A DNA stretch of 30,849 nucleotides from a virus, in IMG/VR virus record IMGVR_UViG_3300009152_000140, positions 1 to 30,849 of that record; one strand, given 5' to 3'. The first letter of the stretch is position 1, and each line of letters starts with the position of its first letter. The notes below the pieces were generated by a model. That model saw nothing but the letters and a program-made list of their open reading frames with translations, did not search any database and was not told the origin of the DNA. This document shows positions 11,191 to 29,837 of the stretch, in pieces. A program made the translations under genes and the position numbers.

Positions 11191-11196
11191 TACCGT
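11191..11196 (+). promoter_or_regulatory. Putative leaderless promoter -10 (TGC-TACCGT)
   Basis: TACCGT with an upstream TG (extended -10 form TGCTACCGT) lies six bases before the ATG at 11203. That ATG has no Shine-Dalgarno (CAACGG precedes it). It shares its layout with the sites before 3028 and 29845. The 120-nt gap upstream otherwise holds GC-rich inverted repeats and a second TAGGGT box at 11120-11125 that is too far from any start to be leaderless. Confidence 0.42.
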
Positions 11197-12155: not shown

Positions 12156-12188
12156 TTTCTTGAACTTCTCTCCTTTCGAGGCTAGAAC
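12151..12188 (+). promoter_or_regulatory. Early promoter P1
   Basis: TTGAAC at 12160-12165, a 17-bp spacer and TAGAAC at 12183-12188, preceded by the AT-rich block GATTCTTTC. The 13-mer GATTCTTTCTTGA at 12151-12163 is repeated exactly at P2 and P3. The expected start is just downstream of 12194, leaving a leader of about 35 nt with a hairpin and GAAGGAG ribosome site before ATG 12229. Confidence 0.75.
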
Positions 12189-12195
12189 ATCACTC

Positions 12196-12210
12196 GTGGC
12201 GCAGGGCCAC
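12196..12210 (+). promoter_or_regulatory. Leader hairpin H1 (GTGGC-GCAGG-GCCAC)
   Basis: Perfect 5-bp stem with a 5-nt loop ending GG. Its 3' end is 18 nt before ATG 12229, just upstream of the AAGGAG ribosome site. No T run follows, so it is not a terminator. First of eight hairpins of similar geometry. Confidence 0.6.
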
Positions 12211-12228
12211 AGCGAAGGAGAAACGAAG

Positions 12229-12456
12229 ATGAGCAGCAAGGTCGAGTTCTGCACCCGAGGCTACGTCAACTCGCACGGCCGAGAGCCCCGCGGCTACGGT
12301 TCCTGGGCCTTCGACTTCGGCGGCGGGCCGGTCTTCGCTCCCGCCTCGACCTACACCGACGCGAAGAAGTGGGCGAAGGAGGTCGCCTCGCTTGTCAATC
12401 GCGGTCGCAAGCTCGCGGGCCTTGGTCCGGTCTTCTCGGTCGAAGTCCTTCCCTGA
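12229..12456 (+). CDS. First early gene, small conserved-looking protein (75 aa)
   Basis: Expressed from P1. The product has a compact start (EFCTRGYVNSHGREPRGYGSWAF), a phenylalanine/glycine core (FDFGGGPVF) and a helix (DAKKWAKEVASLVNRG). A beta-beta-alpha order ending in a beta-strand is likely. No family was recognised. ATG 12229 is chosen over upstream in-frame codons because it follows GAAGGAG at 8-nt spacing and lies behind the promoter. Being first behind the early promoter makes a regulatory or host-takeover role plausible, but this is inference. Confidence 0.75.
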   Translation: MSSKVEFCTRGYVNSHGREPRGYGSWAFDFGGGPVFAPASTYTDAKKWAKEVASLVNRGRKLAGLGPVFSVEVLP

Positions 12457-12527
12457 AGGGGAAGAGCCCCGTCAGAGGACGGCCGCCGGTTCGACACCGG
12501 CACGGGGCTTTGGTCCAAAGGGGACCA
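12448..12527 (+). ncRNA. Structured intercistronic RNA with tRNA-like acceptor/T-arm minihelix
   Basis: Three abutting hairpins fill the gap between two genes. (1) CTTCCC-TGAAG-GGGAAG at 12448-12464 covers the upstream stop codon. (2) A minihelix at 12466-12508: a 7-bp acceptor-like stem GCCCCGT/ACGGGGC directly joined to a T-arm GCCGG-TTCGACA-CCGGC, whose loop is a canonical TTCRANN. The place of D arm, anticodon arm and variable loop is taken by 12 nt (CAGAGGACGGCC). (3) TGGTCC-AAAGG-GGACCA at 12511-12527. The bases after the minihelix are TTTGG, not CCA. It could be an RNA-processing site, an attenuator or a decayed tRNA. All pairings are exact; function is inference. Confidence 0.6.
12511..12527 (+). 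promoter_or_regulatory. Leader hairpin H2 (TGGTCC-AAAGG-GGACCA)
   Basis: Perfect 6-bp stem with a 5-nt loop ending GG. The 3' end is 18 nt before ATG 12546, exactly as for H1. It is also the last element of the structured intercistronic segment. Confidence 0.6.
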
Positions 12528-12545
12528 GCAAAGGGAGAGAGAAAC

Positions 12546-13466
12546 ATGACGATCCAGGACGTTCGCTCGGTTCTTCGCGGTGAGGGCTCGCACATTGTCG
12601 GCGCGATCACGATGTGGTCGCTCTCCGAGGTCCGCGTTCGCTGGGACGACCTCCGGACCGCCTTCGAGGCGATCGGCCTGGGCGACGCGGTCCCGCGTCG
12701 TCCAGTCGCGAAGGCTCTGATCAAGCGGGCGTGCCGTCGAGCGAGCCTCGGGCGTGCGGCCCTCGTCGCCGACGTCGTTCGCGACGATGTCGATCAGGTG
12801 ATCGTCGCCCTCTCCTCCCGAGCGACCGACGAGACCCAGGCCGAGGCTCGCTACGCTCACCAGACCCGGATCATGGTCTCGAAGCGGGACGGCTCGATCC
12901 TCCTGGAGAACTCCGAGCACGCGGCGGCGGCCGAGGTCTCGGCCCTCTACCTCGACAGCCTGGACTACGCGACCGGCGAGGACCTCGCGACGGCGCTCCA
13001 CCACGCCCTCTCGGGGCGGACGCACGACCCGATGCTTGCAGGGGTCAACCTCCGCGGCGACGCGGGAGGCGTGTACTTCGTCCCGCAGACCCACCTCGCT
13101 CGCCTTCAGGCTCTCGCGGGATTCGTCTCCGAGCAGGGCTCCTCGACGATGGAGGTCTGGGAGGTCACGGGCTCGGACAAGCACCTTGCCCAGGCCGCCC
13201 GAGCGGTCGAGGGGGCCTTTGGGGTCAAGCTCGCGAAGCTCCGCGAGGACGTGGCGGCCTTCGCGACGAAGCTCCGCTCCGAGTCCTCCGACCCGAAGGC
13301 CCAGGAGGCCCTCGACGAGGCGATCTCCTCCCGTCGAGCGCGCTACGAGGAACTCGCGGCCCAGGTCGACACCTACGCGGACGTCCTCGGAGCGAAGCGA
13401 GACGGACTCCTCTCCTCGATCTCGGAGGCCCGCGACGCCCTCCGAGCGGCGATCCTCGGGGACTGA
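12546..13466 (+). CDS. Uncharacterised partner protein of the RavA/ViaA-like module (306 aa)
   Basis: The N-terminal ~100 residues read like a small alpha/beta domain (EGSHIVGAITMWSLSEVRVR, DLRTAFEAIGLGDAVPRRP, then a basic helix KALIKRACRRASLG). The middle contains strands and GDAGGVYFVPQTHLARLQAL. The last ~90 residues are a long charged helix or coiled coil (AQAARAVEGAFGVKLAKLRE, ARYEELAAQVDTYADVL). It looks like a family of phage-encoded unknown proteins, possibly the group annotated DUF6744, but this could not be checked. ATG 12546 follows AAAGGGAGAGAG and hairpin H2. Downstream, behind its own promoter, is the MoxR ATPase, so it may be an adaptor or client. Confidence 0.7.
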   Translation: MTIQDVRSVLRGEGSHIVGAITMWSLSEVRVRWDDLRTAFEAIGLGDAVPRRPVAKALIKRACRRASLGRAALVADVVRDDVDQVIVALSSRATDETQAEARYAHQTRIMVSKRDGSILLENSEHAAAAEVSALYLDSLDYATGEDLATALHHALSGRTHDPMLAGVNLRGDAGGVYFVPQTHLARLQALAGFVSEQGSSTMEVWEVTGSDKHLAQAARAVEGAFGVKLAKLREDVAAFATKLRSESSDPKAQEALDEAISSRRARYEELAAQVDTYADVLGAKRDGLLSSISEARDALRAAILGD

Positions 13467-13476
13467 CAGTCGAGCC

Positions 13477-13517
13477 AAGGCGGAGCGGACAAGATTCTTT
13501 CTTGACCCCTCCGCCTT
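13477..13517 (+). repeat. Inverted repeat spanning the P2 -35 region
   Basis: AAGGCGGAG at 13477-13485 and its exact complement CTCCGCCTT at 13509-13517 flank the GATTCTTTC block and -35 hexamer of P2, with 23 nt between arms. Transcribed from upstream it would form a 9-bp stem followed by TTTC, so it could be a weak terminator for the preceding gene as well as an operator. Confidence 0.4.
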
Positions 13518-13530
13518 TCGAGATTAGAAA
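13493..13530 (+). promoter_or_regulatory. Early promoter P2
   Basis: TTGACC at 13502-13507, 17-bp spacer, TAGAAA at 13525-13530, with the GATTCTTTCTTGA 13-mer at 13493-13505. The spacer also shares CCTTTCGAG with P1. It drives the MoxR-like gene at 13570 through a short leader with a hairpin. Confidence 0.75.
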
Positions 13531-13538
13531 CACAACTC

Positions 13539-13553
13539 GCGACTGCGGGTCGC
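13539..13553 (+). promoter_or_regulatory. Leader hairpin H3 (GCGAC-TGCGG-GTCGC)
   Basis: Perfect 5-bp stem with a 5-nt loop ending GG. The 3' end is 16 nt before ATG 13570 and is followed by the GAAAGG ribosome site. Confidence 0.6.
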
Positions 13554-13569
13554 AGAAAGGCAAGTCACG

Positions 13570-14697
13570 ATGACCGTCCACTCCCAGGTCCTGGCCCTCC
13601 GCTCCTCCCTCCTCGGCGCGTTCTGCGAGCGGGAGCGAGAGATCGACTCCCTCCTGATCGCGGCCCTCGCTCGCGAGCACATCCTCCTCCTCGGCCCTCC
13701 GGGGACGGCGAAGTCCGAACTCGCTCGCGCCTTCGCGGGTGCCCTCTCGGGCGCGAACCACTTCGAGTGGCTCCTCTCCCGCTTCTCCTCGCCGGAGGAA
13801 CTCTTCGGGCCGGTCAGTCTCTCGGGCCTGAAGGCCGACCGCTTCGAGCGCGTCACGACCGGAAAGCTCCCGGAGGCCCACGTCGCCTTCCTCGACGAGG
13901 TGTTCAAGGCGAACTCCGCGGTCCTGAACTCGCTCCTCGGCGTGATCAACGAGAGGCACTTCCACAACGGGACCGGGATCCAGAAGTGCCCGCTCGTGAC
14001 GTGCGTCGCGGCCTCGAACGAGCTTCCGGAGGGCCCCGAACTCGGCGCGCTCTGGGATCGGTTCGTCCTCCGGCATTGGGTGGACTACGTCCAGAGCCCG
14101 GACTCGTTCGCGGCGATCGTCGGCGGGACGAAGAGCCTCCGGGCCTCGGTCTCGATCTCCCTCGGCGAGTGGGAGGCGGCCCAGGCCGAGGTCGACGCGG
14201 TCGCCCTCCCGAAGAAGGTCATCGACGCCCTCTTCTCGCTCCGGGCGAAGCTCCAGGCCGAGGGCATCACGGCCTCCGACCGTCGGTGGCGCAAGTGCGG
14301 CGCGCTCCTCCGGGCGGCCGCTTGGCTCGACGGTCTCCAGGCCGTCGAGGTCGAGCACCTCGCGGTCCTCGCTCACGCGCTCTGGAACACGCCCGATCAG
14401 GCCCCGAAGGTCGCGGCCCTCGTCGCGGGCTTCGCCTCGGAGGAACTCGCCAAGGCGCAACAGATCGCGGACAGCCTCGTCGAGGTCCTCGCGAAGGTCC
14501 CGGCGGAGTCGGACGGGAGCTTCGAGGCTCGGGCGGTCTCGGCCCGACGAGAGGTCCGGAAGGGCCTGGAGCGGATCTCCGCCCTCCGGTCCGCGGCAAG
14601 CCCGAGCGCGGCGCGGAAGATCGAGGCGATCGCCTCCGACCTCCAGGCCCGGAGCGCGACCCTCCGCGAGGCCGTCGAGCGTCTCCTCTCGCTCTGA
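13570..14697 (+). CDS. MoxR-type AAA+ ATPase, RavA-like
   Basis: A 375-aa AAA+ ATPase. Walker A is GPPGTAKS (42-49), Walker B VAFLDE (105-110), sensor 1 is N150 in AASNELPEG, and the arginine finger is probably R164 in LWDRF. The stretches FEWLLSRFSSPEELFGPVSL, LPEAHVAFLDEVFKA and GVINERHFHNG closely follow E. coli RavA as remembered, more than generic CobS/MoxR proteins. RavA hexamers work with the VWA protein ViaA as a chaperone-like pair linked to respiratory and Fe-S enzymes. A VWA gene lies next downstream with its own promoter. Helices after residue 300 (RREVRKGLERISALR) probably bind a partner. ATG 13570 follows GAAAGG. Confidence 0.88.
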   Translation: MTVHSQVLALRSSLLGAFCEREREIDSLLIAALAREHILLLGPPGTAKSELARAFAGALSGANHFEWLLSRFSSPEELFGPVSLSGLKADRFERVTTGKLPEAHVAFLDEVFKANSAVLNSLLGVINERHFHNGTGIQKCPLVTCVAASNELPEGPELGALWDRFVLRHWVDYVQSPDSFAAIVGGTKSLRASVSISLGEWEAAQAEVDAVALPKKVIDALFSLRAKLQAEGITASDRRWRKCGALLRAAAWLDGLQAVEVEHLAVLAHALWNTPDQAPKVAALVAGFASEELAKAQQIADSLVEVLAKVPAESDGSFEARAVSARREVRKGLERISALRSAASPSAARKIEAIASDLQARSATLREAVERLLSL

Positions 14698-14701
14698 CGA
14701 T

Positions 14702-14739
14702 GATTCTTTCTTGACCCCGCTCGCCGTCGAGTCTATACA
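14702..14739 (+). promoter_or_regulatory. Early promoter P3
   Basis: TTGACC at 14711-14716, 17-bp spacer, TATACA at 14734-14739, with the third exact copy of GATTCTTTCTTGA at 14702-14714. An 8-bp inverted repeat, CCGTCGAG (14724-14731) with CTCGACGG (14744-14751), straddles the -10 and is an operator candidate. Confidence 0.75.
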
Positions 14740-14741
14740 AA

Positions 14742-14758
14742 GGCTCGACGGTCGAGCC
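14742..14758 (+). promoter_or_regulatory. Leader hairpin H4 (GGCTCGA-CGG-TCGAGCC)
   Basis: Perfect 7-bp stem with a tight CGG loop. The 3' end is 19 nt before ATG 14778. It starts only 2 nt after the -10, so the transcript may begin inside the hairpin. Confidence 0.5.
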
Positions 14759-14777
14759 GTCAGAGAGGCAAGGCAAG

Positions 14778-16250
14778 ATGGATCAGGCGAAGGCGATCGA
14801 GATCATGCAGGGCGGCGCGGACGGCGCGGTGCGGGTCGGTTCCTGGGTTCGCTCCCTCGCGGTCGAGGAGGCCCAGGGAGGCGGAGCCTTCGGCGACTCG
14901 ATCACCCGCCACGACTCCGCGGCCTGGGCGGGCTTCTCCCGAGAGGTCTTCGGATCGCTCTACGGTCTCGGGGTCGAGGCCGTCGAAGGCTCCTCCTGGG
15001 CCCGGGAGATCCTCTCCCAGGCGGAGAGCCTCCCGGAGTGGCGGGCCCTTCAGGCGCGGGCCGAGGGCGACTCCTGGGCGTGCGGCCTCGCGGCTTCGCA
15101 AGCTCTCGACGTCCTCGCCCCGATCTCGACGCCTCCCTCCGAGGACGCGGCTCAGGCACGCGAGAAGGCCGAGGCTCTCCGCGAGGCTCTCGCCGAGAAC
15201 CCGACCTCGGAGCGTCTCTTCTCGAAGCTGTCCAGGGCGATCGGCGACCTCGCACGGGCCGAGAAGTCCGACGAGGATGCGGCGGCCCAGGCTCGGGAGA
15301 GCGCGGCGAAGATTCGATCCGCCCTCCGTCGGGCGGCCGCTTCGGCCTCGGAAGCGGTCGACGAGGCCCAGGAGGCCCTCGCCGGTCTCGGGTGCTCGAA
15401 GGAGCCCGGATCGAAGGGCCAGGGCAAGCGTCCGGAGGCCGTCGCGGCTCTCCGCGGCTCGGCGAAGCTCCGCCGGATCGCCCGTCTCGCCGGTCGGCTG
15501 AAGGCCCAGGCGATCGCGAAGCAGAGCACGAAGGCCGACCACGGCCGGGAGGAACTCTGCGACGTCGAGTGCGGAGACGACCTCGGCCGCCTCCTCCCGA
15601 GTGAGTCGGTCTTCCTCGCCGACTCGGATCTGGAGGCCGTCCTCTTCCGCCGACTCCTGGAGCGGAGCGCGCTCCAGTACCGGCTCCGCGGGCGGGACGT
15701 CGAGGCCCAGGGCCCGATCGTGGTCGCGATCGACGAGAGCGGCTCGATGCAGGGCTCTCGCGACGAGTGGGCGAAGGCCGTCGCCCTCGCTCTGCTGGAG
15801 ATCGCGCAGCGTCAGAACCGAGCCTTCGCCGTCGTCCCCTTCTCCGGCAAGGTGGGCGCGATCGCGGAGTTCCGAGCCCCGAAGAGCGCAAGCCTGGAGG
15901 AGATCCTCTCGGTGCTGGGCGGCTTCCTTGGCGGCGGGACGGCGATCGGCGACGCCCTCTCGGCCTCCGCCGGTTTGATCTCGGCCGACTCCGAGCGTCG
16001 CCTCACCTCGGGCTCGAAGGCCTGGAAGAAGGCGGACGTCGTCTTGATCACCGACGGGGTCGACCACGACCTCTCCGGGATCTCCCTGGGCCTCGACCGA
16101 GTCCGGGACTCCGGCGCGACGCTCCACGCGATCGCGATCGGATGCGACCTCGGGAAGACGATCTCCGATCGGGCCGCGAGCACGACCCGAATCGACCACG
16201 AGGACCTCGGCGGCGCTTCGCCGAAGGTCGACGCGGTGTTCTCGATCTGA
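14778..16250 (+). CDS. VWA-domain protein, ViaA-like partner of the MoxR ATPase
   Basis: 490 aa, close to the length of E. coli ViaA. The first ~300 residues are helical and Ala/Glu-rich with coiled-coil segments. The C-terminal von Willebrand A domain begins GPIVVAIDESGSMQGSRDEW and has a full MIDAS: D319, S321 and S323 in DESGS, T388 in GGGTAIGDAL and D426 in LITDG. MoxR-VWA pairs act as ATP-driven, metal-dependent remodelling machines (RavA-ViaA, CbbQ-CbbO, CobS-CobT type), with the MIDAS contacting the client or ATPase. ATG 14778 follows an AGAGAGG/AAGG site. It is expressed from P3. Target in the infected cell unknown. Confidence 0.85.
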   Translation: MDQAKAIEIMQGGADGAVRVGSWVRSLAVEEAQGGGAFGDSITRHDSAAWAGFSREVFGSLYGLGVEAVEGSSWAREILSQAESLPEWRALQARAEGDSWACGLAASQALDVLAPISTPPSEDAAQAREKAEALREALAENPTSERLFSKLSRAIGDLARAEKSDEDAAAQARESAAKIRSALRRAAASASEAVDEAQEALAGLGCSKEPGSKGQGKRPEAVAALRGSAKLRRIARLAGRLKAQAIAKQSTKADHGREELCDVECGDDLGRLLPSESVFLADSDLEAVLFRRLLERSALQYRLRGRDVEAQGPIVVAIDESGSMQGSRDEWAKAVALALLEIAQRQNRAFAVVPFSGKVGAIAEFRAPKSASLEEILSVLGGFLGGGTAIGDALSASAGLISADSERRLTSGSKAWKKADVVLITDGVDHDLSGISLGLDRVRDSGATLHAIAIGCDLGKTISDRAASTTRIDHEDLGGASPKVDAVFSI

Positions 16251-16265
16251 CGGGCCCCGGGCCCG
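16251..16265 (+). promoter_or_regulatory. Leader hairpin H5 (CGGGC-CCCGG-GCCCG)
   Basis: 5-bp stem with a 5-nt loop ending GG, starting right after the VWA stop codon. The 3' end is 14 nt before GTG 16280, with GAAAGG between. No new promoter is visible here, so the hairpin lies inside a longer transcript. Confidence 0.55.
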
Positions 16266-16279
16266 AGAAAGGCAGAAAC

Positions 16280-17497
16280 GTGACCAAGCACTCGAAGAAG
16301 CGGACGCTCTGCGTCCTGACGAACTCGGAGACGGAGACCTTCCGGACGTGCCCTCAGAAGTGGAGCTTCGCCTACCGCGAGGGGCTCCGGCCGAAAGTGG
16401 CGGCTCGGCCTCTCGCCTTCGGCTCGGCGATTCACTCCGGCCTAGAGGCCGCCTACCGCGAGATCGCGGCGGCCCGTCAGGCCGGGACGCATCAGGAATT
16501 GTCGCCGGAGGGCCTCTCGGCGATCTCCAGGGCAGCGTGCGAGGCGAAGCTCCGGGCCTGGGACGAACTCGTCGCGGCCGCCTCCGCCGAGCCGAACGAG
16601 GACGCGGTCGAAGAGTCCGAGCAGACGGCCGACCTCGCGAAAATCATGCTGGCTAGGTACTGGGATCGGTTCCAGCACGACGCGGTCGACCTGATTCCCC
16701 TCGCGATCGAGTGGCCCTTCGAGGTCGTCCTCCGATCCTCGATCGGTCGAGCGGTCTCCCACCTTCGGTGGGCTGGCGTGATCGACCTCGTCGCCTTCGA
16801 CCCTGTCGCCGGAGACGTCGTGATCTTCGACCATAAGACCACCAGCGGGCCGGTCTCTTCGATCGATCGCAGGGTCGAGATGGACCCGCAGATCGCGGGC
16901 TACCTCTGGGCCCTCCGCGAGGTCTTGATCCGAGACAAGGAACGAGCCCTCCCTCTCTTCGGCCTTTTGACGCCGGAGCAGAGGTCGCGGGCCATCTCCG
17001 GCCGCGCTCCGCTCGGTCGAGTGATCTACAACGTCCTCCGGAAGACGGCTCCGAGGCAGCCCGTGGTCACGCTGAAGGGCCTCGTCTCCTCCGCGGCGAT
17101 CGACACGACGTCCGAGGTCTACGAGACCGCCCTACTGGCCCAGGAGGCCCGAGGGGTCCCAAGGACGGAGGCCCAGGCGGATCGCCTCCACGGGCTCCGA
17201 GAGCGCGGGGACGTCTTCGTCTCTCGTCGAGCGTTCTGGAGGTCGGACTCCGAGATCGACCGCTGGCGTCGAGAGGCCCTCCTCGACGCGAGCCGGATTC
17301 GTCAGGCGAAGGACGACCCGAGCTTGCTGACCCGGAGCCCGGGAGCTTGCACGGCTCCGTGGTCGCCTCCCTGCGCTTACCGATCGATCTGCCTCCAGCC
17401 CGAGTCCCAGGAACTCCGGAGCCTGTTCCGGGTCGCGACGACGGCCCACGAGGAGATCCGAGAGGCCGAAGAGGTGGCGCAGCCCGACCCGTTCTGA
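16280..17497 (+). CDS. PD-(D/E)XK nuclease with Fe-S cysteines (RecB/Cas4/AddB-like)
   Basis: A 405-aa nuclease of the RecB/Cas4 type. The N-terminal FRTCPQKWSFAYR has C24, followed by GSAIHSGLEAAY. The catalytic core is D169 (GVIDLV), D184 and K186 (IFDHKTT) and the Q204xxxY motif (DPQIAGYLWAL). Near the end C357, C365 and C371 (spacing C-x7-C-x5-C) together with C24 would bind a 4Fe-4S cluster, as in AddB and Cas4. Such phage enzymes resect DNA ends for recombination with the Sak4-like ATPase and SSB encoded just downstream. GTG 16280 is supported by GAAAGG and hairpin H5. Confidence 0.88.
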   Translation: MTKHSKKRTLCVLTNSETETFRTCPQKWSFAYREGLRPKVAARPLAFGSAIHSGLEAAYREIAAARQAGTHQELSPEGLSAISRAACEAKLRAWDELVAAASAEPNEDAVEESEQTADLAKIMLARYWDRFQHDAVDLIPLAIEWPFEVVLRSSIGRAVSHLRWAGVIDLVAFDPVAGDVVIFDHKTTSGPVSSIDRRVEMDPQIAGYLWALREVLIRDKERALPLFGLLTPEQRSRAISGRAPLGRVIYNVLRKTAPRQPVVTLKGLVSSAAIDTTSEVYETALLAQEARGVPRTEAQADRLHGLRERGDVFVSRRAFWRSDSEIDRWRREALLDASRIRQAKDDPSLLTRSPGACTAPWSPPCAYRSICLQPESQELRSLFRVATTAHEEIREAEEVAQPDPF

Positions 17498-17499
17498 AC

Positions 17500-17531
17500 T
17501 TGACTTGCGGCGAACCATCGAGGATTAGAAC
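17500..17531 (+). promoter_or_regulatory. Possible promoter P4 before the coiled-coil gene
   Basis: TAGAAC at 17526-17531 matches the P1 -10 exactly and is also preceded by CGAGG-AT. The TTGACT at 17500-17505 is 20 bp away, longer than the 17 bp of P1-P3; TTGCGG at 17505-17510 would give 15. The GATTCTTTC block is absent. A start near 17538 leaves only about 12 nt before ATG 17551, and there is no leader hairpin. Confidence 0.45.
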
Positions 17532-17550
17532 CAAGGAAGGTGAGGCGAGG

Positions 17551-17958
17551 ATGAAGGACGAGACGAAGAAAGCGGTCGCTGACGCGATCGCGAAGGGCGG
17601 AGAGCGGGAGCGACAGATCGTCGCCCGCTTCCGAGCCTGGGAGGGCTTCCAGAAGGCCCTCCAGGACGCGAGGCGGACGGCGAAGGAGCGTGTCGACGCG
17701 GCCCAGGCTCGGTTCCGAGAGGCGATCGAGGCGGGGACTCAGCAGACCCAGGCGAGCAAGGCCGGGAAGCTCCAGGCCGTCGAGTCTTCCTGGCAAGCTC
17801 TGGAGGAGGCGAAGGCGGAGAAGATCGAGGACGTCAAGGCGGCGAAGGACGACCTCCAGGTGGCGGAGTCGAGGCTCCGGGAGGCCGTCGAGAACGCGGC
17901 CCAGTTGACGCTCTGGCCCTCTGAGGAGACCGGAGAGATCGAGGACGAGGACGCCTGA
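17551..17958 (+). CDS. Coiled-coil protein between nuclease and Sak4-like ATPase (135 aa)
   Basis: Almost entirely helical and charged, with heptad-like repeats through residues 15-115 (FQKALQDARRTAKERVDAAQ, SWQALEEAKAEKIEDVKAAK) and an acidic tail (EETGEIEDEDA). No enzyme motif or transmembrane segment. The place between an Fe-S nuclease and a recombinase-like ATPase suggests a structural partner in recombination, for example an SbcC-like clamp or scaffold, but this is only context. ATG 17551 follows AAGGAAGGTGAGG. Confidence 0.65.
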   Translation: MKDETKKAVADAIAKGGERERQIVARFRAWEGFQKALQDARRTAKERVDAAQARFREAIEAGTQQTQASKAGKLQAVESSWQALEEAKAEKIEDVKAAKDDLQVAESRLREAVENAAQLTLWPSEETGEIEDEDA

Positions 17959-17984
17959 CGTGGTGTTAGGCTCCGAGCGAGGCA

Positions 17985-18000
17985 CGAGGATTCGGCCTCG
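17985..18000 (+). promoter_or_regulatory. Leader hairpin H6 (CGAGG-ATTCGG-CCTCG)
   Basis: 5-bp stem with a 6-nt loop ending GG. The 3' end is 18 nt before ATG 18019, followed by AAAGAAAGGGAAGAG. A TG-T-TAGGCT box (17967-17972) just upstream is an extended -10 candidate without a clear -35. Confidence 0.55.
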
Positions 18001-18018
18001 AAAGAAAGGGAAGAGACC

Positions 18019-18879
18019 ATGCGACGAGTAGACGAAGACCCGAACGAGCGGTGGGTGAAGGCGGGCCTCTACGGGCCTCCCGGGAGCGGGAAGACGGACT
18101 TCGGAGTCTCGGCTCCGAAGCCCCTGATCCTCCTCTCGGAGAGGCAGGGCCTCCGGTCGATCAAGGCGGCGGCGGCGCGACGAGGCGTCCCCGTTCCGAC
18201 GGTCCTGGCGATGGACAACCTCCAGGACTACCGGGACGTCCTCCGGGCCCTCCACGGGCCGAAGGATCAGCCGTTCCGGATCGTGACCGGCCGAGGCGAG
18301 GTGGCTCACGAGGGCGAGTGGCCCGAGACCGTCGTGCTCGACTCCCTGACCGACGCTTGCGAACTCGTCGAGGCCGAGGTCCGGAAGGAGAGCCCTCCGG
18401 AGAAGGCGAAGGACGGGCTCGAACGCTGGACGGAGCGCCATTGGTCCGCGCTGCGGGACCGCTGCGAGCGGCTGATTCGCTCCTTCCGAGACGCTCCGGT
18501 CCACGTCCTCTTCCTGGCTCTCCAGGACGATCGGACGGTCGGCGAAGGAGAGGAGGCGGCACGTCAGGTCGGCCCGTCGCTCCCGATGCGAGCCCTCCCG
18601 GGAGTTCTCGCGGCGAGCGTGAACGTGGTCGGGATCACGTCTCGGGCGTTGAGAGACCGAGGCGAGGACGGGCAGAGGGAGATTGCCTACGAGATCCGGA
18701 CCGTCGGGCCCTCGTTCTACCTCCTGAAGCCGTTCCGCCCGCTCCTCGACCTGGAGACGAGCGACTTCGCCTCCTGGGTTCAGAGGATCGCGTCCGCGGA
18801 GTCTCCGCAGACCAAGGAACCGAAGAAGAACGAGAAGGCCGAGAAGAAGACCGAGAAGAAGGACGAGGTGGCGCGATGA
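18019..18879 (+). CDS. Sak4-like RecA-fold ATPase (AAA_24 type), DNA recombination
   Basis: 286 aa with Walker A GPPGSGKT (19-26) and a Walker B-like TVVLDSLTD around D108. The arrangement, WVKAGLYGPPGSGKTDF early, a short core, then a strand VHVLFLALQDD and a late VVGITSRAL, is that of phage AAA_24/Sak4 single-strand annealing ATPases, which are small RecA relatives working with an SSB. The next gene is a DUF669-like SSB joined by ATGA overlap, the usual partner. The C-terminus is a lysine/glutamate-rich tail (KKNEKAEKKTEKKDE) likely to bind DNA or the partner. Confidence 0.8.
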   Translation: MRRVDEDPNERWVKAGLYGPPGSGKTDFGVSAPKPLILLSERQGLRSIKAAAARRGVPVPTVLAMDNLQDYRDVLRALHGPKDQPFRIVTGRGEVAHEGEWPETVVLDSLTDACELVEAEVRKESPPEKAKDGLERWTERHWSALRDRCERLIRSFRDAPVHVLFLALQDDRTVGEGEEAARQVGPSLPMRALPGVLAASVNVVGITSRALRDRGEDGQREIAYEIRTVGPSFYLLKPFRPLLDLETSDFASWVQRIASAESPQTKEPKKNEKAEKKTEKKDEVAR

Positions 18880-19370
18880 TGTTCGACCCGAAGAAGCACT
18901 CCGAAGACGGCGGCGGCGGCGGAGACTCGAAGACCGTTCCGGCGGGCGACTACATCCTGGCGGCGACGTGGCTGGAGAAGAAGGTCAGCAAGGCCGGAGC
19001 CCCGTACCTCCGGGTCAAGTTCCAGGTGGTCGGCGGACCTCTCGCCGGTCGCTCCTTCTTCGCGGCTTGCTCCCTGAACCAGGGCTCGCCCGGGGCGATG
19101 AAGCGGCTCGCGACGTGGTGCGCCTTCCTCGGTCAGCAGGACTCGTTCGACCTCGGAAAGGACTCGGACCTCCGTCGAGTCTTCCTCGATCGACCCTTCG
19201 CGGCTCGCGTCGCTCTCCGGACCGAGGGCGGCTTCACGAACAACGACATTGAACGCTACACGGCGATGACGCCCGACCAGCGTCGAGTCGCTGACGGCTG
19301 GGTGCTCGACCGGCAGGAGAGCGCGGCGATGGGCGGCCGAGACGACGACGAGGATCAGATCCCGTTCTGA
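18876..19370 (+). CDS. DUF669-like single-stranded DNA-binding protein
   Basis: 164 aa. The core VPAGDYILAATWLEKKVSKA and YLRVKFQVVGGPLAGRSFF is the OB-like pattern of DUF669 phage proteins. The final DDDEDQIPF is the acidic, Phe-ending tip typical of SSBs, through which partner proteins dock. It begins with a Gly-rich flexible stretch (EDGGGGGD). ATG 18876 overlaps the ATPase stop; the next codon is also ATG. It probably coats single strands for the Sak4-like annealing ATPase and the replication proteins. Confidence 0.8.
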   Translation: MMFDPKKHSEDGGGGGDSKTVPAGDYILAATWLEKKVSKAGAPYLRVKFQVVGGPLAGRSFFAACSLNQGSPGAMKRLATWCAFLGQQDSFDLGKDSDLRRVFLDRPFAARVALRTEGGFTNNDIERYTAMTPDQRRVADGWVLDRQESAAMGGRDDDEDQIPF

Positions 19371-19393
19371 CCCTGCGCGAGGTCTGATAGGCT
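19365..19393 (+). promoter_or_regulatory. Possible promoter before the replication-initiation gene
   Basis: TTCTGA at 19365-19370 (covering the SSB stop), 17-bp spacer, TAGGCT at 19388-19393 with TG one base upstream (TGATAGGCT). The same TG-N-TAGGCT occurs at 17964-17972. The -35 is poor, and a further TTGACT at 19413 has no matching -10. Confidence 0.35.
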
Positions 19394-19447
19394 CGGGCCT
19401 CGCGCTCCTCGCTTGACTCGGTCGAGCGCGGAGCGGAAGGTCCGAGC

Positions 19448-19461
19448 GGGCTCCAGAGCCC
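19448..19461 (+). promoter_or_regulatory. Leader hairpin H7 (GGGCT-CCAG-AGCCC)
   Basis: Perfect stem with a 4-nt loop (or 6 bp with CA). The 3' end is 15 nt before GTG 19477, with GAGAGGAGAG between. Position matches the other leader hairpins, but the loop does not end in GG, so it is the weakest member. Confidence 0.4.
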
Positions 19462-19476
19462 AGAGAGGAGAGACGG

Positions 19477-20025
19477 GTGGATCGACTTCAACACCTCGCG
19501 ACGCTGGCGGACCTTGCGGCTCGCTACGCTCGCGGAGAGGACGTGAGGGCAGACCTCGCGAAGCTCGCGGAGACGATGGGCGGAGGGCCCCAGCTTGCGC
19601 TCGTGCCTCAGGCCCAGGAGGCCGAGAGCCCTCGTGACGTCGCGCTCCGGGTCTTCAGCTACTGGCAGAAGCGGACGGGTCATCATCGAGCGAAGGTTAC
19701 GCCCGAGAGAGCCAGGAAGATCCTCGCGAGGCTCCGCGAGGGATACTCGGAGGATGACCTCCGGAGGGCGATTGACGGGTGCGCGGCGAGCGCGTTCCAC
19801 TCGGGCCTGAACGACTCAGGCGTCCGGTACGACGATCTGGAGTTGATCTTCCGGACGGGCTCGAACGTCGAGCGGTTCCGGGAACTCAACGGAGGAGAAG
19901 CTCCGATCCAGACGGAGCAAGATCCGGAGGCGGCGAAGCGGGCCTCCCTCATGGCGGAAGCGAAGCGGCTCCGGGCCGCAGGAGACGTAGATGGCTACAA
20001 CAGAATCATTCGATCCCTCGCTTGA
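19477..20025 (+). CDS. Replication-initiation-like protein (phage replisome organiser C-terminal type)
   Basis: 182 aa. Residues about 60-130 contain VFSYWQKRTGHHRAKVTPER, ARKILARLREGYSEDDLRRA and a YDDLELIFRTGSNVERF ending. This pattern is common in phage replication proteins next to helicase-loader or SSB genes. It probably helps recruit the host helicase at the phage origin. The N-terminal 55 residues are helical and the C-terminal helix (AKRASLMAEAKRLRAAG) is basic. GTG 19477 follows a strong GAGAGGAGAG. It overlaps the next gene by 35 nt. Confidence 0.65.
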   Translation: MDRLQHLATLADLAARYARGEDVRADLAKLAETMGGGPQLALVPQAQEAESPRDVALRVFSYWQKRTGHHRAKVTPERARKILARLREGYSEDDLRRAIDGCAASAFHSGLNDSGVRYDDLELIFRTGSNVERFRELNGGEAPIQTEQDPEAAKRASLMAEAKRLRAAGDVDGYNRIIRSLA

Positions 20026-20599
20026 AAACCCCGTCAAGGCGGCGAAGCTTTTCGCCCGTGCCCTCGGTCGGCTCTACGACCCGAAGGCCGGGGCGGACGA
20101 GAGGCTCTCCGTCCGCTTCGAGGTTGCCGAGGAGATCCGTCGAGGCCTCCGCCGGTTCCGTCGCCCGGAGCTTCCTCTCCGAGACCCGACGTGGCCTCGG
20201 GACGAGAGGGCGATCCGAGAGCGCATCCGGTTCGCCTCCCGCTCGAAGGCTCCCGAAGACCGCTCCTTCCTGGGCGAGTACGGGGAGTGGCGCTACGCGA
20301 TCTGGCAAGTGGAGAGCGTCGCCGAGGGCAACGTCCAGGCCCTCCTCTCCTGCCTGGACACCTACGAGGCGATCCTGGAGCGCATCCCGGGAGAGCCGAA
20401 CGTCGAGGCGGCGAGGCTCGACGTCGAGGGCTGGCTACTGAGCGAGTGGCGGATCCCGGGACCTATCCCGAAGGCCTACGCGGACCGGAAGGTGTACGTC
20501 GAGGCGCACGTCCGGGCCGTGATCCGAGGAGAGCCGGTCAAGCTCGCGGGACCGACGATGAACAACGCGTCCTGGTACGACGCAGACGAGGAGAGGTGA
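19991..20599 (+). CDS. Hypothetical protein of the replication block (202 aa)
   Basis: Starts at ATG 19991 behind GCAGGAGACG, 35 nt inside the previous gene. The middle is Arg-rich (EEIRRGLRRFRRPELPLRDP), followed by an acidic and aromatic helical part (EYGEWRYAIWQVESVAEGNV, LLSCLDTYEAILERI) and a C-terminal segment ending NNASWYDADEE. It looks cytosolic and helical. No family was recognised. Its place between replication-initiation and RusA genes suggests a DNA-metabolism role. Confidence 0.7.
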   Translation: MATTESFDPSLENPVKAAKLFARALGRLYDPKAGADERLSVRFEVAEEIRRGLRRFRRPELPLRDPTWPRDERAIRERIRFASRSKAPEDRSFLGEYGEWRYAIWQVESVAEGNVQALLSCLDTYEAILERIPGEPNVEAARLDVEGWLLSEWRIPGPIPKAYADRKVYVEAHVRAVIRGEPVKLAGPTMNNASWYDADEER

Positions 20600-20604
20600 A
20601 GGCG

Positions 20605-21189
20605 ATGAACGAGAACAACAACGAGGAACTGCTCCGAGAGAGGCTCCGCTCGCTCCGCCTGGAGAGCGGCGACATGGTCGAGATCGAGGCCGAGGACGCG
20701 GGACGCTACGCCCTCCGGATGCGTCCGGAGTTCGCGGCCCTCGTCGCCCAGATGAGGGCGACGATGGGGCCCGAGACTCTGAAGCCCCACGGGATCCTTT
20801 TCTTGAACGAACTCGCGTGCCTTTCGGTCTCGGTCTACCGGGACGCTCAGAAGACAATCGGAGACGGCCTGACCGCGGAGAGCTTGATCGGGGTCGACGA
20901 CATGGGGTTCGTGATCGGAGCGGTCGGGGAACTCCTCCACGGGGCAGCCCGAGCGGCCCTCTCTGCCTACGAGGGCGAGAGGGGGCGAGACGACGGCGAC
21001 ACGCTCCGGGAGTACGAGGCCGGTCAGAGAGCGGGCGTGCGCTGGGTCGAGGCTTTCCGCAAGGCTCAGGAGAAGGGGTCGATCGTCCAGATCGCGGGAG
21101 GTCTAAACTTCCAGGCCGATCGAGACCAGAAGTTGACGGTCGACGACCTCGCCCTGCTCCTCCGGAAGCGAGACGGAGCCGTCTCGTGA
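20605..21189 (+). CDS. Hypothetical protein upstream of RusA (194 aa)
   Basis: ATG 20605 follows GGAGAGGTGAAGG and lies 5 nt after the previous stop. The N-terminus is polar (MNENNNEELLRERLRSLRLE). A hydrophobic helical core follows (ILFLNELACLSVSVYRDA, MGFVIGAVGELLHGAARAAL) and the C-terminus is mixed (LTVDDLALLLRKRDG). The core is too interrupted by charges to be a membrane span. No family recognised. It ends in an ATGA overlap with rusA. Confidence 0.7.
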   Translation: MNENNNEELLRERLRSLRLESGDMVEIEAEDAGRYALRMRPEFAALVAQMRATMGPETLKPHGILFLNELACLSVSVYRDAQKTIGDGLTAESLIGVDDMGFVIGAVGELLHGAARAALSAYEGERGRDDGDTLREYEAGQRAGVRWVEAFRKAQEKGSIVQIAGGLNFQADRDQKLTVDDLALLLRKRDGAVS

Positions 21190-21584
21190 TGGAGGTCCGA
21201 TTCGTCGTCCTCGGCCCTCCGCAGCCAAAACAGAGGCCTCGTCGAGCGACCCTCGGCCCGGGGAACAAGCGGGCGGTGTGGTACACGCCGAAGCCGACCA
21301 AGCTCTACGAGGAGTGGGTGGGTCTCTCCGGCTGGAAAGCCCTCGAAGCTGCGGGTCTCTGGGCCTCTTGGCCTCGGAGGGCATCCTACGAGGTCGACCT
21401 CCGGATCGTCCGGAGAATGAAGCGGAAGCTCGACGTCGACAACGTAGCGAAGTCCGTCCTCGACGGCCTGAACCGCGTCCTCTGGGAGGACGATTCTATG
21501 GTGAGGAAGCTCTCCGCGGAGATGCTCGATCCGGACGGGACGCCTCGCGTCGAGGTCTTCGTTCGAGCCCTGGAGGGAGCATGA
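21189..21584 (+). CDS. rusA: RusA-type Holliday junction resolvase
   Basis: 131 aa, the normal RusA size. It opens with VRFVVLGPPQPKQRPR, the family's N-terminal strand and basic patch. It has the catalytic signature D82-V-D84-N-V-A-K88-S-V-L-D92 followed by VLWEDDSMV (D101, D102). RusA dimers bind four-way junctions and nick them symmetrically with Mg2+, resolving recombination or branched packaging intermediates. All acidic residues expected for activity are present. ATG 21189 overlaps the upstream TGA. Confidence 0.92.
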   Translation: MEVRFVVLGPPQPKQRPRRATLGPGNKRAVWYTPKPTKLYEEWVGLSGWKALEAAGLWASWPRRASYEVDLRIVRRMKRKLDVDNVAKSVLDGLNRVLWEDDSMVRKLSAEMLDPDGTPRVEVFVRALEGA

Positions 21585-21880
21585 TCTCGGAGCAACAGGC
21601 GAGGGAGGCGACGGTCTGGCGTCTCCTCCGGCAGACCTACCTCCGCCTCGTCGGGCACTACACCGGGAAGGACCTCCTCCGGGCTCGGAACGAGGAGCAG
21701 GAACTCGCCCTCGACCGCTGGCACCGCTCGATGGAGGGAGACCTCGCTCTCCTGTCCGAGGCCCTCCGGGCCGCTCGCTCCTCCGGGATCGCGGAGGTCC
21801 ACCGGAGGCTTCACTCGGCGGAGAACACCGACCACGAGATGCTCGATCAGGCGATCGAGTATGCGGAGGAGGACGGATGA
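21581..21880 (+). CDS. Small helical hypothetical protein (99 aa)
   Basis: Coupled to rusA by ATGA overlap and to the next gene the same way; TGGAGGGAGC provides the ribosome site. The protein is helical and charged (TVWRLLRQTYLRLVGHYTGK, EEQELALDRWHRSMEGDLAL, HRRLHSAENTDHEML). No enzyme or DNA-binding signature was found. Function unknown. Confidence 0.7.
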   Translation: MISEQQAREATVWRLLRQTYLRLVGHYTGKDLLRARNEEQELALDRWHRSMEGDLALLSEALRAARSSGIAEVHRRLHSAENTDHEMLDQAIEYAEEDG

Positions 21881-22170
21881 AGCCCGCTCGGAACGCCCGA
21901 CACCTCCGCCTCGTCCGGGCTCTCCCGTGCTGCTACTGCGCGGCTCCAGCCCCGAGCGATGCTCACCATTGGGGCCCGAGAGGAGTCGGGCAGAAGACGT
22001 CCGACTATCGGACCGTGCCCCTTTGCCGGAAGTGCCACGACGGCTTCCACGCCTCCGGGACGGTGGGGAACATGACCGCGGAGGACACGCGGTGGTTTTT
22101 TCTGCGGACCCAGGTCGAAATTCTGGAGCGTCGGATCGAGGGAGAGCTAGACTCCGGAGACGCGACTTGA
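21877..22170 (+). CDS. HNH-like zinc protein (DUF968/Ref-type)
   Basis: 97 aa. The segment LPCCYCAAPAPSDAHHWGPRG, then GVGQKTSDYRTVPLC, then RKCHDGFH has paired Cys, an HH, the K-x-S-D, PLC-x-x-C-H and a final His of HNH-type proteins such as DUF968 and recombination-linked phage Ref proteins. In that fold the cysteines bind zinc and His/Asp form the beta-beta-alpha-metal site. It may nick DNA during recombination or act without catalysis. The position after rusA fits recombination. Start overlaps the previous stop. Confidence 0.75.
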   Translation: MKPARNARHLRLVRALPCCYCAAPAPSDAHHWGPRGVGQKTSDYRTVPLCRKCHDGFHASGTVGNMTAEDTRWFFLRTQVEILERRIEGELDSGDAT

Positions 22171-22187
22171 TCGCGAGGGAGGCGAGG

Positions 22188-22364
22188 GTGGAGAACGAGT
22201 GGAAGGTCTACCTACTGCGCGGCCGTCAATGGTGGCCCGCGAGGCACGCGCCGACGATCGAGGCGGCCAGGAAGAACGCGAAGGCGGGTCTCGCCGAGTG
22301 GCCGAACGCCGAGAAGGCGAGGATCCTCCGCGACTTCGTCGTGGTCGAGGAGGTCGTCCGATGA
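22188..22364 (+). CDS. Small hypothetical protein (58 aa)
   Basis: GTG 22188 sits behind GAGGGAGGCGAGGG; a TTG at 22167 is an alternative start. The product has two short strands (EWKVYLLRGRQWWPARHAP) and helices (AARKNAKAGLAEW, KARILRDFVVVEEVV). The next gene starts inside its stop (ATGA). No family recognised. Coupling supports reality. Confidence 0.6.
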   Translation: MENEWKVYLLRGRQWWPARHAPTIEAARKNAKAGLAEWPNAEKARILRDFVVVEEVVR

Positions 22365-22561
22365 GCGCCAGGAAGCTTGCGGCCCTCGTCCTCGAAGCGA
22401 TCCAGGAAGACGTCCGGATCTCCGACCCTGCCTCCGGGTCCGAAGACCTCGCCGACGTCCTCGTCCGAGGCCGGGACGGGCGGCCTTCCTACAGAATCAC
22501 GGTCCAGCGTCTCTCCGGGAAGGCAACCCTCGGGGACGTCTTGCTCGACGGCGAGTCCTGA
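22361..22561 (+). CDS. Small hypothetical protein (66 aa)
   Basis: ATG 22361 overlaps the previous stop. The sequence (KLAALVLEAIQEDVRISDPA, DLADVLVRGRDGRPSYRITV) suggests one helix followed by a small beta-sheet. No signature found. It sits in a chain of coupled small genes typical of phage accessory or anti-defence content. Confidence 0.6.
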   Translation: MSARKLAALVLEAIQEDVRISDPASGSEDLADVLVRGRDGRPSYRITVQRLSGKATLGDVLLDGES

Positions 22562-22570
22562 GAGGCTACG

Positions 22571-22969
22571 ATGCGGAAGATCATCGAAGTCGGGCGCGAA
22601 GAAAGCGCGAGAGAGGCGAGGCCGATCATGCACCACGACGGAAGCGGGACGCTCGGACCGAGGATCGAGCGGGTCAACGCGAAAATTGGGATCTTGGAAC
22701 GTCGGTGCGACTGGCTCCGGACCCGTCTCGCGGAGCCTGGAAGGAACGACCGTCAGCAGAGCTTCGACCGAGCCGAGGTCGAGGCCCTGGAGGCCGCTTG
22801 CTCGGCTCTCCGGTATCATCGTCAGTCGCTCGACGCGGACACCGATCCGGTCCTCTCCCTCGCGGAGATCCTCGACGCGGTCGAGGAGTCGGGCCCCGCA
22901 CTCTCGGACCGAATCGAGAGCGCGATCATCCGAGCGAGGCGAGTTCTCCGAGACCTGTCACCAGACTGA
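22571..22969 (+). CDS. Hypothetical helical protein (132 aa)
   Basis: ATG 22571 is 9 nt after the previous stop behind GAGAGG. The first 30 residues are basic and His-containing (EARPIMHHDGSGTLG). The rest is helical (IERVNAKIGILERRCDWLRT, AEVEALEAACSALRYHRQSL, RIESAIIRARRVLRDL) with possible coiled-coil pairing. No recognised family. Confidence 0.65.
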   Translation: MRKIIEVGREESAREARPIMHHDGSGTLGPRIERVNAKIGILERRCDWLRTRLAEPGRNDRQQSFDRAEVEALEAACSALRYHRQSLDADTDPVLSLAEILDAVEESGPALSDRIESAIIRARRVLRDLSPD

Positions 22970-22973
22970 TCGA

Positions 22974-22988
22974 GCGTCCGCGGGACGC
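22974..22988 (+). promoter_or_regulatory. Leader hairpin H8 (GCGTC-CGCGG-GACGC)
   Basis: Perfect 5-bp stem with a 5-nt loop ending GG. The 3' end is 18 nt before ATG 23007. It matches H1-H3 and H5 in geometry although it lies about 3.5 kb beyond H7, showing the element is not restricted to promoter-proximal leaders. Confidence 0.6.
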
Positions 22989-27900: not shown

Positions 27901-28334
27901 AGCGGACGATCCGAGTCGGGCACCAGAAGCGGGAGGCGATGATCGCCCTCGCGGCGGACGGGCTCTCGAACAGGCAGATCGGCGAACGGCTCCAGACGGC
28001 GGAACGGACGGTCTACGACGTCCTCCGGACCGAGGACGCGAAGGCCGAGGTCCGAGAGGCACGGGAGGCCCGGGTCGCCCGAGCCAAGGCCCGCCTGGAG
28101 TTCCTCGCCGATGCGGCGATCGGAGCCCTCGGTCAGGCGATCGTCGGGAGCCACGAGTCGAAGATCCGCCTCGCGGCGGCGGACTCGATCCTCGACCGAA
28201 TCGGCCTGACGCGGAGCGTCAAGACGGAGAGCGTCACCCGCCACGCCTCCGGAGGAGGAGACGGCTTCGGTTCGAGGTCAGAAGAAGACCTCCGTTTCTT
28301 CGTCGAGTTCGGCCGCTGGCCCGAGGAGACGTGA
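27897..28334 (+). CDS. Terminase small subunit-like protein with HTH
   Basis: 145 aa directly before the large terminase, coupled by GTGA overlap. Residues about 10-45 are a sigma/LuxR-type helix-turn-helix (AMIALAADGLSNRQIGERLQ, ERTVYDVL), followed by a coiled helical region (AKAEVREAREARVARAKARL, AAIGALGQAIVGSHESKIRL) that would oligomerise. The end is acidic and aromatic (DLRFFVEFGRWPEE), a possible contact with the large subunit. Small terminases bind the packaging site and stimulate the motor. The assignment is from position and layout. GTG 27897 follows GGCGGAGGCAAG. Confidence 0.72.
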   Translation: MKRTIRVGHQKREAMIALAADGLSNRQIGERLQTAERTVYDVLRTEDAKAEVREAREARVARAKARLEFLADAAIGALGQAIVGSHESKIRLAAADSILDRIGLTRSVKTESVTRHASGGGDGFGSRSEEDLRFFVEFGRWPEET

Positions 28335-29812
28335 CCGCCTGGGCCGCTCGGGCAAGAGCCCGGAAGGAACTCCTCCTCCGCTCGTGCCGGAGGTCGGCCT
28401 CGGCCTTCATCGAGTACGCGCTCTCCCACGAGAAGACCGGGAAGCGACTTCAGAACGCGGCTCATCACGTCGAGTGGCAAGCCTTCCTCGATGCGAACGA
28501 CCGAGCGGTGCTCTGGGCCCCGGTCGAGCACGGGAAGACGCAACAGATCGCGATCGGGCGCGTCCTCTGGCTCCTCGGGAACGACCCGTCGAGGCGTCTC
28601 GCCTTGGTCTCGAACACGTCCTCCCAGGGGGCGAAGCTCATCGCGTCGATCAAGGCCCACATCGAAAGGAACGAGCGAGTCCACGAGGTCTTCCCTCACC
28701 TCCGGCAGAGCCCGCACGAGGAGGACCCGTGGCACGCGACGGCGATCACGGTCGAGCGCGCTACGATCGCGAAGGACCCGAGCGTCCAGGCCCTCGGGGT
28801 CGGAGGCCCGATCGTCGGCTCTCGCCTCGACGGCGCGATCCTCGACGACGTCCTCGACTTCGAGAACACCCGGACGGCCGACCAGATGGGCAAGCTCGAA
28901 GAATGGTTCGACTCGACCCTCTCGACCCGCGTGGTCGAGGGCGGGTTCATCCACGCGATCAACACGCCCTGGCACACCGAGGACCTCTCGCACCGTCTCG
29001 CGAGGCGTCCGGGCTACCAAAGTCGACGCTACTCGGCGATCGAGAACCCGTCCGATCCTCCGGACCTTTGGCGGCCGCTCTGGCCCGAGCAGTTCTCGGT
29101 GGAGCGTTTGAAAGGGATTCAAGCGGGGACGACCGGCCCGAACTTCGCGAGAAAGTACCTGTCCGAAGTGCGGGTCGACTCGGCCTCTCGCTTCTCCCAG
29201 GCGTGGCTCGACTCGATGGTCTCGGCCGGTCGAGGCTGGGGGACCTACCGTCGAGCCCCGGTCTCGGGCGGGAAGCTCTGGCCTTGCTTCACCGGGGTGG
29301 ACCTCGGGATCGGCGAGAGCGCACAGCACGGGCTGACCGTCCTCTTCACGATCGCCCTCGAACCGACCGGGAGGAGGAGGAGGATCGTCGTCGAGATCCA
29401 GAGCGGGCGCTGGACCGCTCCGGAGATCGTATCCCGACTCCAGGACGTCCAAGCTCGCTACCAGAGCCTGATCCTCGTCGAGTCCAACGGGGCCCAGAAG
29501 TTCCTCGTCCAGTTCGCGAGCGACCGGCACCTCCCGGTCCGACCCTTCTTCACGACGGCCCAGAACAAGTTCTCCGAGTCTTTCGGCGTCGAATCGCTCG
29601 CGGTCGAGATGCGGAACAACCTCTGGGTGGTCCCGAGCGGAGAGCAGGGCGACGACGTCGGCTCCGAGGCCCGGGAATGGATGCGGGAGGCCCTCTTCTA
29701 CTCGCCCGAGGCTCACACCGGGGACCGGCTCATGGCGTCGTGGTTCGCCCGGGAGGGAGCCCGTCAGTACGCTCCGACGGTCTTCGGTCAGCACAACCTC
29801 CAGGCTAGGTGA
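28331..29812 (+). CDS. Terminase large subunit (DNA packaging motor)
   Basis: 493 aa, the usual length. The ATPase half has a Walker A-like APVEHGKT (63-70), a Walker B ending at D172-D173 (DGAILDDVLDF) and the TPWHTEDLSHRL coupling-type segment. The RNase H-like nuclease half has candidate acids D324 (TGVDLGIGES), E384 (LILVESNGAQ) and D465 (GDRLMASW). It translocates DNA into the prohead and cuts it into genome lengths. GTG 28331 overlaps the small subunit stop. The relaxed Walker A (EHGK rather than GxGK) is common in this family. Confidence 0.92.
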   Translation: MTAWAARARARKELLLRSCRRSASAFIEYALSHEKTGKRLQNAAHHVEWQAFLDANDRAVLWAPVEHGKTQQIAIGRVLWLLGNDPSRRLALVSNTSSQGAKLIASIKAHIERNERVHEVFPHLRQSPHEEDPWHATAITVERATIAKDPSVQALGVGGPIVGSRLDGAILDDVLDFENTRTADQMGKLEEWFDSTLSTRVVEGGFIHAINTPWHTEDLSHRLARRPGYQSRRYSAIENPSDPPDLWRPLWPEQFSVERLKGIQAGTTGPNFARKYLSEVRVDSASRFSQAWLDSMVSAGRGWGTYRRAPVSGGKLWPCFTGVDLGIGESAQHGLTVLFTIALEPTGRRRRIVVEIQSGRWTAPEIVSRLQDVQARYQSLILVESNGAQKFLVQFASDRHLPVRPFFTTAQNKFSESFGVESLAVEMRNNLWVVPSGEQGDDVGSEAREWMREALFYSPEAHTGDRLMASWFAREGARQYAPTVFGQHNLQAR

Positions 29813-29831: not shown

Positions 29832-29837
29832 TACGCT
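29832..29837 (+). promoter_or_regulatory. Putative leaderless promoter -10 (TACGCT)
   Basis: TACGCT lies seven bases before ATG 29845, with no Shine-Dalgarno between. GTGACT at 29809-29814, 17 bp upstream, is a weak -35 and overlaps the terminase stop. Same layout as the sites before 3028 and 11203. Confidence 0.42.

Follow-up and report, generated by a model that had tools for sequence, protein, structure and literature searches.

Leader Hairpins in the Early Region

The window analysed here is the whole 30,849-base stretch of the IMG/VR virus record IMGVR_UViG_3300009152_000140, which is probably a genome fragment; it has 68% GC, and nearly all of its genes lie on the + strand. Eight short hairpins (H1–H8), all within positions 12,196–22,988, stand in front of early genes, and among the genes downstream of them are those for a DUF6744 protein, a MoxR-type ATPase, a VWA protein, a PD-(D/E)XK nuclease, a Sak4-like annealing ATPase and a replication initiation-like protein. 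A preliminary description of this DNA had listed the eight sequences, placed them 14–19 nt before the start codons and noted the lack of T runs. All eight were located letter for letter, the spacing holds, and no + strand terminator-like call falls at any of them.

The hairpins and the promoter candidates, the latter read in the sequence, are all on the + strand. H1 (GTGGC-GCAGG-GCCAC, 12196–12210; 25.6 bits, E 0.0028 with a covariance model for whose building it was used) is followed by AGCGAAGGAG and the start codon at 12229, and the promoter candidate TTGAAC-17-TAGAAC (12160–12188) lies 7 nt upstream of it. H2 (TGGTCC-AAAGG-GGACCA, 12511–12527) precedes the DUF6744 gene starting at 12546, and H3 (GCGAC-TGCGG-GTCGC, 13539–13553), with the promoter candidate TTGACC-17-TAGAAA (13502–13530) 8 nt upstream, precedes the MoxR-type ATPase gene at 13570. 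Farther downstream are H5 (CGGGC-CCCGG-GCCCG, 16251–16265; 24.4 bits), which abuts the stop codon of the VWA gene and precedes the nuclease gene at 16280; H6 (CGAGG-ATTCGG-CCTCG, 17985–18000), before the Sak4-like ATPase gene at 18019; H7 (GGGCT-CCAG-AGCCC, 19448–19461; 15.2 bits, E 0.67), before the replication initiation protein-like gene at 19477; and H8 (GCGTC-CGCGG-GACGC, 22974–22988; 28.1 bits), before the start at 23007. H6 is weak in ensemble folding (P 0–0.29), and its orthologues have good stems.

As the hairpins were first written, seven of the eight loops end in GG, H7 being without this ending, and the closure C-NNNGG-G is found in H1, H2, H3, H5 and H8. H4, however, is better read otherwise. 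The letters of the 7-bp stem with a CGG loop given in the preliminary description are present at 14742–14758, but the hairpin in register is the overlapping GACGG-TCGAG-CCGTC (14747–14761; 21.2 bits), which is followed by AGAGAGGCAAG and the start of the VWA gene at 14778 and whose loop lacks the GG end. This re-reading brings AGAGAGGCA into register with the other copies, and the hairpin then begins 7 nt past the -10 candidate TATACA of the promoter candidate TTGACC-17-TATACA (14711–14739), compared with 7 nt for H1 and 8 nt for H3.

Together with the copies in related phages considered below, these hairpins define a module that consists of a short stem, a loop of about 5 nt mostly ending in GG, the dinucleotide AG and then the core of the Shine-Dalgarno (SD) sequence. 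The stem is 5–6 bp long, and in 22 copies the hairpin lies 16.2 ± 1.6 nt before the start codon; the offset from the stem to the SD core is exactly 3 nt in most of them (mean 3.0, sd 1.2), and in 20 the bases adjoining the stem are AG. The distance from the -10 box to the hairpin, where a -10 can be named, varies from 6 to 20 nt, so that the position of the hairpin is fixed relative to the ribosome site and not to the promoter. GG ends the loop in 19 of 24 copies of the clade against 12% of comparable hairpins in these genomes (nominal p 1e-13), and the five remaining loops are GAAG, CCAG, ACGAA, ATCAC and TCGAG. The module is used behind promoters and between cistrons alike. If the re-reading of H4 is accepted, the three promoter-proximal copies of the window (H1, H3 and H4) all start 7–8 nt past the -10, and their predicted transcripts would begin roughly where the stem does.

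Perfect hairpins are generally common in this GC-rich DNA (10.8 per kb), and the frequency of the module was compared with dinucleotide shuffles of the same leaders (2000 rounds for the window). Leaders with a gap of at least 24 nt were taken, and a hairpin was required to have at least 5 perfect pairs, a loop of 3–6 nt and its end 13–20 nt before the start. Such hairpins are present in 8 of the 10 early leaders of the window, where 0.50 would be expected and the shuffle maximum was 4; shuffled leaders are thus far from equally rich in hairpins, and the earlier claim that nearly all leadered early genes are covered, with 17551 as the exception, stands. The start at 17551 has no hairpin because a candidate -10, TAGAAC (17526–17531, + strand, read in the sequence), leaves a leader of about 13 nt with no room for it, and the start of the other early leader without a hairpin, 22188, is probably mis-called. 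A ninth NNNGG hairpin (19965–19979), 11 nt upstream of 19991 and within coding sequence, may be due to chance.

Conservation in Related Phages

A near-identical relative (L005/G002, 97–98% identity to the window phage) and two diverged ones were compared, namely L014 (6.2 kb; Sak4 70% and DUF6744 55% identical) and L018/G001 (55.6 kb; Sak4 67% identical, and 78% for the large terminase, encoded at 28331–29812 in the window). No close relative was found in the named phage collection, two alignment scans of genomes with DUF6744 and terminase gave no relative, and when viral contigs were scanned with a DNA pattern describing the module with a CTC/GAG stem, L014 was the only match. The Sak4-like gene of L014 contains an in-frame TAG (5614–5616), either an error or the sign of a broken gene, and the 55.6-kb relative has, among its late genes, a tRNA-Arg call with the unusual anticodon GCG (L024 4996–5075, minus strand).

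In the same leader test, hairpins were found in 6 of 7 leaders of L014 (0.44 expected) and in 8 of 11 early leaders of G001 (0.59 expected). The seventh call in L014 is internal to the Sak4 gene, so that all six leadered genes on its + strand carry the module, and the VWA leader of G001 has an additional module with one G-U pair beyond the eight counted. Among starts with short gaps or overlaps, hairpins were met in only 7 of 76 across the three genomes.

The stems of orthologous leaders are unrelated in sequence and nevertheless paired. Before the DUF6744 gene, TGGTCC/GGACCA of the window corresponds to GCCTC/GAGGC in L014 and GCCGC/GCGGC in L018, the full hairpins being GCCTC-CTCGG-GAGGC and GCCGC-GATAGG-GCGGC. 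The Sak4 leaders have GCCCG-ATCAC-CGGGC in L014 and GGTCGG-CGAGG-CCGACC in L018, which also carries GCCGC-ACGAA-GCGGC before MoxR (H3) and GTCGGC-GCAGG-GCTGAC before VWA (H4), as well as GACGC-CGAAGG-GCGTC before a different gene at what looks like the H8 junction. L005/G002 keeps the hairpins, with the H2 loop GAAGG instead of AAAGG. At L005 6350–7060, the H1 leader is retained with the gene behind it replaced, and a duplicated promoter with an H1-type leader precedes an inserted small gene; leader cassettes therefore shuffle independently of genes.

In an ungapped alignment of 17 copies, some rows of which are off register, 95.3% of the pair cells are paired, all five pairs are altered on both sides, and the covariation score is 0.868 against 0.18 for shuffled and at most 0.17 for slid alignments. 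The rows were chosen by structure, and the leader enrichment test therefore remains the unbiased evidence. A covariance model built from these copies recovers the members and two more that were not used in building. These two are GCGGC-TCTGG-GCCGC (L014 11–35, minus strand, E 0.0015) and GGCTA-CGAGG-TAGCC (L022 14242, plus strand, E 0.075), both belonging to opposite-strand genes, from which it follows that the hairpins keep to the orientation of the genes. The selection on RNA structure proposed in the preliminary description is supported both by the shuffles and by the relatives, since in L014 and L018 both sides of the stems have changed and still pair, with no uncompensated loss. As the stems vary freely in sequence but stay paired, the module is, judging from these comparisons, a real RNA element with a putative role in control or protection.

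More distant phages were represented by about 75 that share the MoxR gene. Of their 946 leaders, some from near-duplicate loci, 138 had a hairpin 12–21 nt before the start against 47.5 expected, about a threefold excess with a peak at 16–17 nt. These phages have other loops, used more than once in the same phage (TGGGC in L088; GCGGT, GATTT and GTTGT in L032), and L028, with a MoxR identity of 55%, has AGGGT, ATGGA, ACGCA and ACCGA together with three covariance model hits (E 0.01–0.05). The GG loop is therefore a trait of the clade, and the hairpin before the SD is wider. In L006 and L007, a distant phage, the sequence-conserved hairpin GGAGC-AATCAA-GCTCC stands 20–21 nt before several genes. 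The module was not seen in four named cultured phages, of Variovorax, Pseudomonas, Sphingomonas and Brevundimonas, several leader hairpins of which are long and resemble terminators of the preceding gene.

Early and Late Starts

The absence of hairpins before the late starts at 3028, 7942, 11203 and 29845, stressed in the preliminary description, holds, but the real contrast is between leadered genes and leaderless or closely spaced ones. Without an SD sequence, TACGCT (3016–3021) is located 6 nt upstream of 3028, TACCGT (11191–11196) 6 nt upstream of 11203 and TACGCT (29832–29837) 7 nt upstream of 29845, all on the + strand; their common form is the -10-like TANNNT, or about TGCTACGCTCKCGGCC, and the three late genes are probably leaderless. 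The starts at 5234, 19140 and 32259 of G001 (reversed) have the same look, and at 7942 the preceding stop codon is only 12 nt upstream. The early/late contrast, being explained in this way, gives no evidence for an early-gene regulator. In the leader test, 1 of 5 late leaders of the window (0.34 expected) and none of 8 in G001 had a hairpin. The early promoters before 389 and 1836 in L014 and before 2203, 3765 and 8133 in L018 contain ACGCTCCGAAGCGT-like inverted repeats just upstream of the -10 and differ from the ATTCTTTCTTGAC type of the window.

Three-Way-Junction Element

Another structured RNA occurs after stop codons, beginning about 6–8 nt past them. It is a three-way junction with an outer stem of about 6 bp and two inner hairpins, the second of which has the loop Y-TCGNN-A. 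The copy of the window (12464–12510, + strand, loop TCGAC in P3) lies just upstream of H2 and has covarying copies in L014, L018 and L005. The elements were found by a descriptor search, as MAFFT gave no structural alignment; the search located copies in L014 (627–677 and 1653–1701) and G001 (42565–42607 and 48743–48788, corresponding to L018 2486–2529 and 8665–8711) and an altered one in L025 (6531–6572), and one more in L014 (2331–2373) was recognised by eye. In the three genomes the descriptor gave five hits, whereas the reverse strand had none and shuffled sequences averaged 0.05; in other phages there were five hits in 2.9 Mb of strand-bases. The stems covary, TCG is conserved in one loop, and one subgroup has GAGGA in a different loop.

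The window, L014 and L018 together have six copies, five of which end no more than about 10 nt from a hairpin; the L014 copy at 1653–1701 and that of L025 do not adjoin one. The element has no Rfam match and resembles a tRNA lacking the D arm, which is a likeness only. A tRNA-Phe called by ARAGORN at 12424–12510 is probably spurious because it overlaps the end of a coding sequence and the junction, and the relatives have no tRNA call at this place.

Possible Functions

In our opinion, which is held tentatively, the most likely reading of the module is a cis-acting hairpin of the 5' leader that abuts the initiating ribosome and protects the boundary of the mRNA. The hairpin would sit directly at the upstream side of the 30S subunit initiating at the SD, with little bare RNA between them, so that each early cistron would receive a closed upstream boundary resisting decay that depends on the 5' end, and it would also mark the site of ribosome entry. 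The GG loop may be a refinement specific to the clade, making the loop more stable or helping it to touch the ribosome or some host factor. In E. coli and B. subtilis, an mRNA can be stabilised by a hairpin or a ribosome site close to its 5' end (PMC3997798). Several observations weigh against this proposal. Folding shows no gain in accessibility of the SD or the start due to the hairpin; an intercistronic hairpin would come to lie at a 5' end only through cleavage of the RNA; in most promoter copies of L014 and L018 the hairpin is preceded by an unpaired stretch of several to about 14 nt; and the preference for GG loops requires an additional reason. Simple unmasking of the ribosome site was also considered and is not supported, because the hairpin brings no accessibility gain: the first comparison, in which the option forbidding pairs may not have acted, gave 0.581 against 0.584 with shuffled upstream sequence (p 0.82), and the second gave 0.54 for the SD against 0.52 with the bases of the 5' arm blocked (p 0.50).

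As an alternative, a stabiliser of the mRNA 5' terminus like that of ompA, its end made at the promoter and, between cistrons, by cutting at the upstream three-way junction, appears possible though rather doubtful: H1, H3 and the re-read H4 begin at about the expected transcript start, and the junction follows the stop codon closely and ends near a hairpin in most copies, but the position of the module is tied to the SD rather than to the promoter, and H5 and the hairpin at L014 4837 abut a stop codon with no junction element. We consider it unlikely, and a little more so, that the hairpins form a shared translational operator through which one phage or host RNA-binding protein, reading the NNNGG loop and AG, controls the early genes jointly. 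The excess of GG loops over background, the free stems, as for readers of shape plus loop, and the recurring loops of other phages, such as TGGGC in L088, as if each had its own reader, agree with it; five members without GG, the modules on opposite-strand genes, the lack of an identified reader protein and the occurrence of the same pre-SD hairpin elsewhere with other loops do not. The loop GG near the SD is reminiscent of CsrA/RsmA leader hairpins. CsrA needs GGA, however, and the base after the loop GG is G or C in 17 of 17 copies and G or T in the two opposite-strand copies; GG never stands before A, so that this is not a CsrA/RsmA site.

Still less probable is a two-part system punctuating the early operons, in which the tRNA-like junction behind a stop codon would serve as a cut site or a 3' cap and the SD-locked GG hairpin, recognised by a factor of its own, as a 5' cap, so that each early cistron would become an independent protected mRNA. 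As for terminators, DNA operators or chance hairpins, the high GC content and the frequency of perfect hairpins speak for chance, and yet the module has no T run, is tied to the SD and to gene orientation and is far above the shuffles, while stems that differ completely leave no common DNA half-site; this explanation is hardly credible.

Comparison with Known Systems

Hairpins preceding successive early phage genes are known from T7, where the early intercistronic ones are RNase III sites; unlike these, stems of 5–7 bp are too short as RNase III substrates. Single 5'-terminal stabilising stem-loops have been described for ompA, papA and B. subtilis aprE (PMC3997798), and the module is similar to them as a short stem-loop beside the ribosome site, which behind promoters may likewise be close to the start of the mRNA, but it occurs in more than 20 copies in the clade, lies about 3 nt above the SD and is intercistronic too. 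Among published patterns, the closest one found is that of the start-associated sequences (SAS) of cluster K mycobacteriophages. SAS has 13 conserved bases, GGGATAGGAGCCC, and is usually located 3–7 nt before the start; in the extended form there are 17-bp repeats, the changes in which, according to the authors, do not support RNA pairing (PMC3203893). Like the module, SAS is present in many copies per phage, only in the non-structural half, just upstream of starts and in gene orientation, and it is likewise unexplained, with a suspected part in translation initiation (PMC3203893). Here, in contrast, the sequence is free and the pairing is kept, and the SAS sequence has 14 loose matches in the window against 18.6 by chance, none of them at the hairpins. 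In the window Rfam gave only two matches, both below threshold and both away from the hairpins, and it gave none in the relatives; no published description of the module was found in a literature search of incomplete coverage.

Conclusions

The hairpins represent a leader design that phages of a little-known group repeat before nearly all of their leadered early genes and that has a looser version in many other phages. If the protection of mRNA boundaries is true, the module would supply high-GC hosts with a portable leader part, and if a reader of the loop exists, its targets would constitute a new phage regulon.

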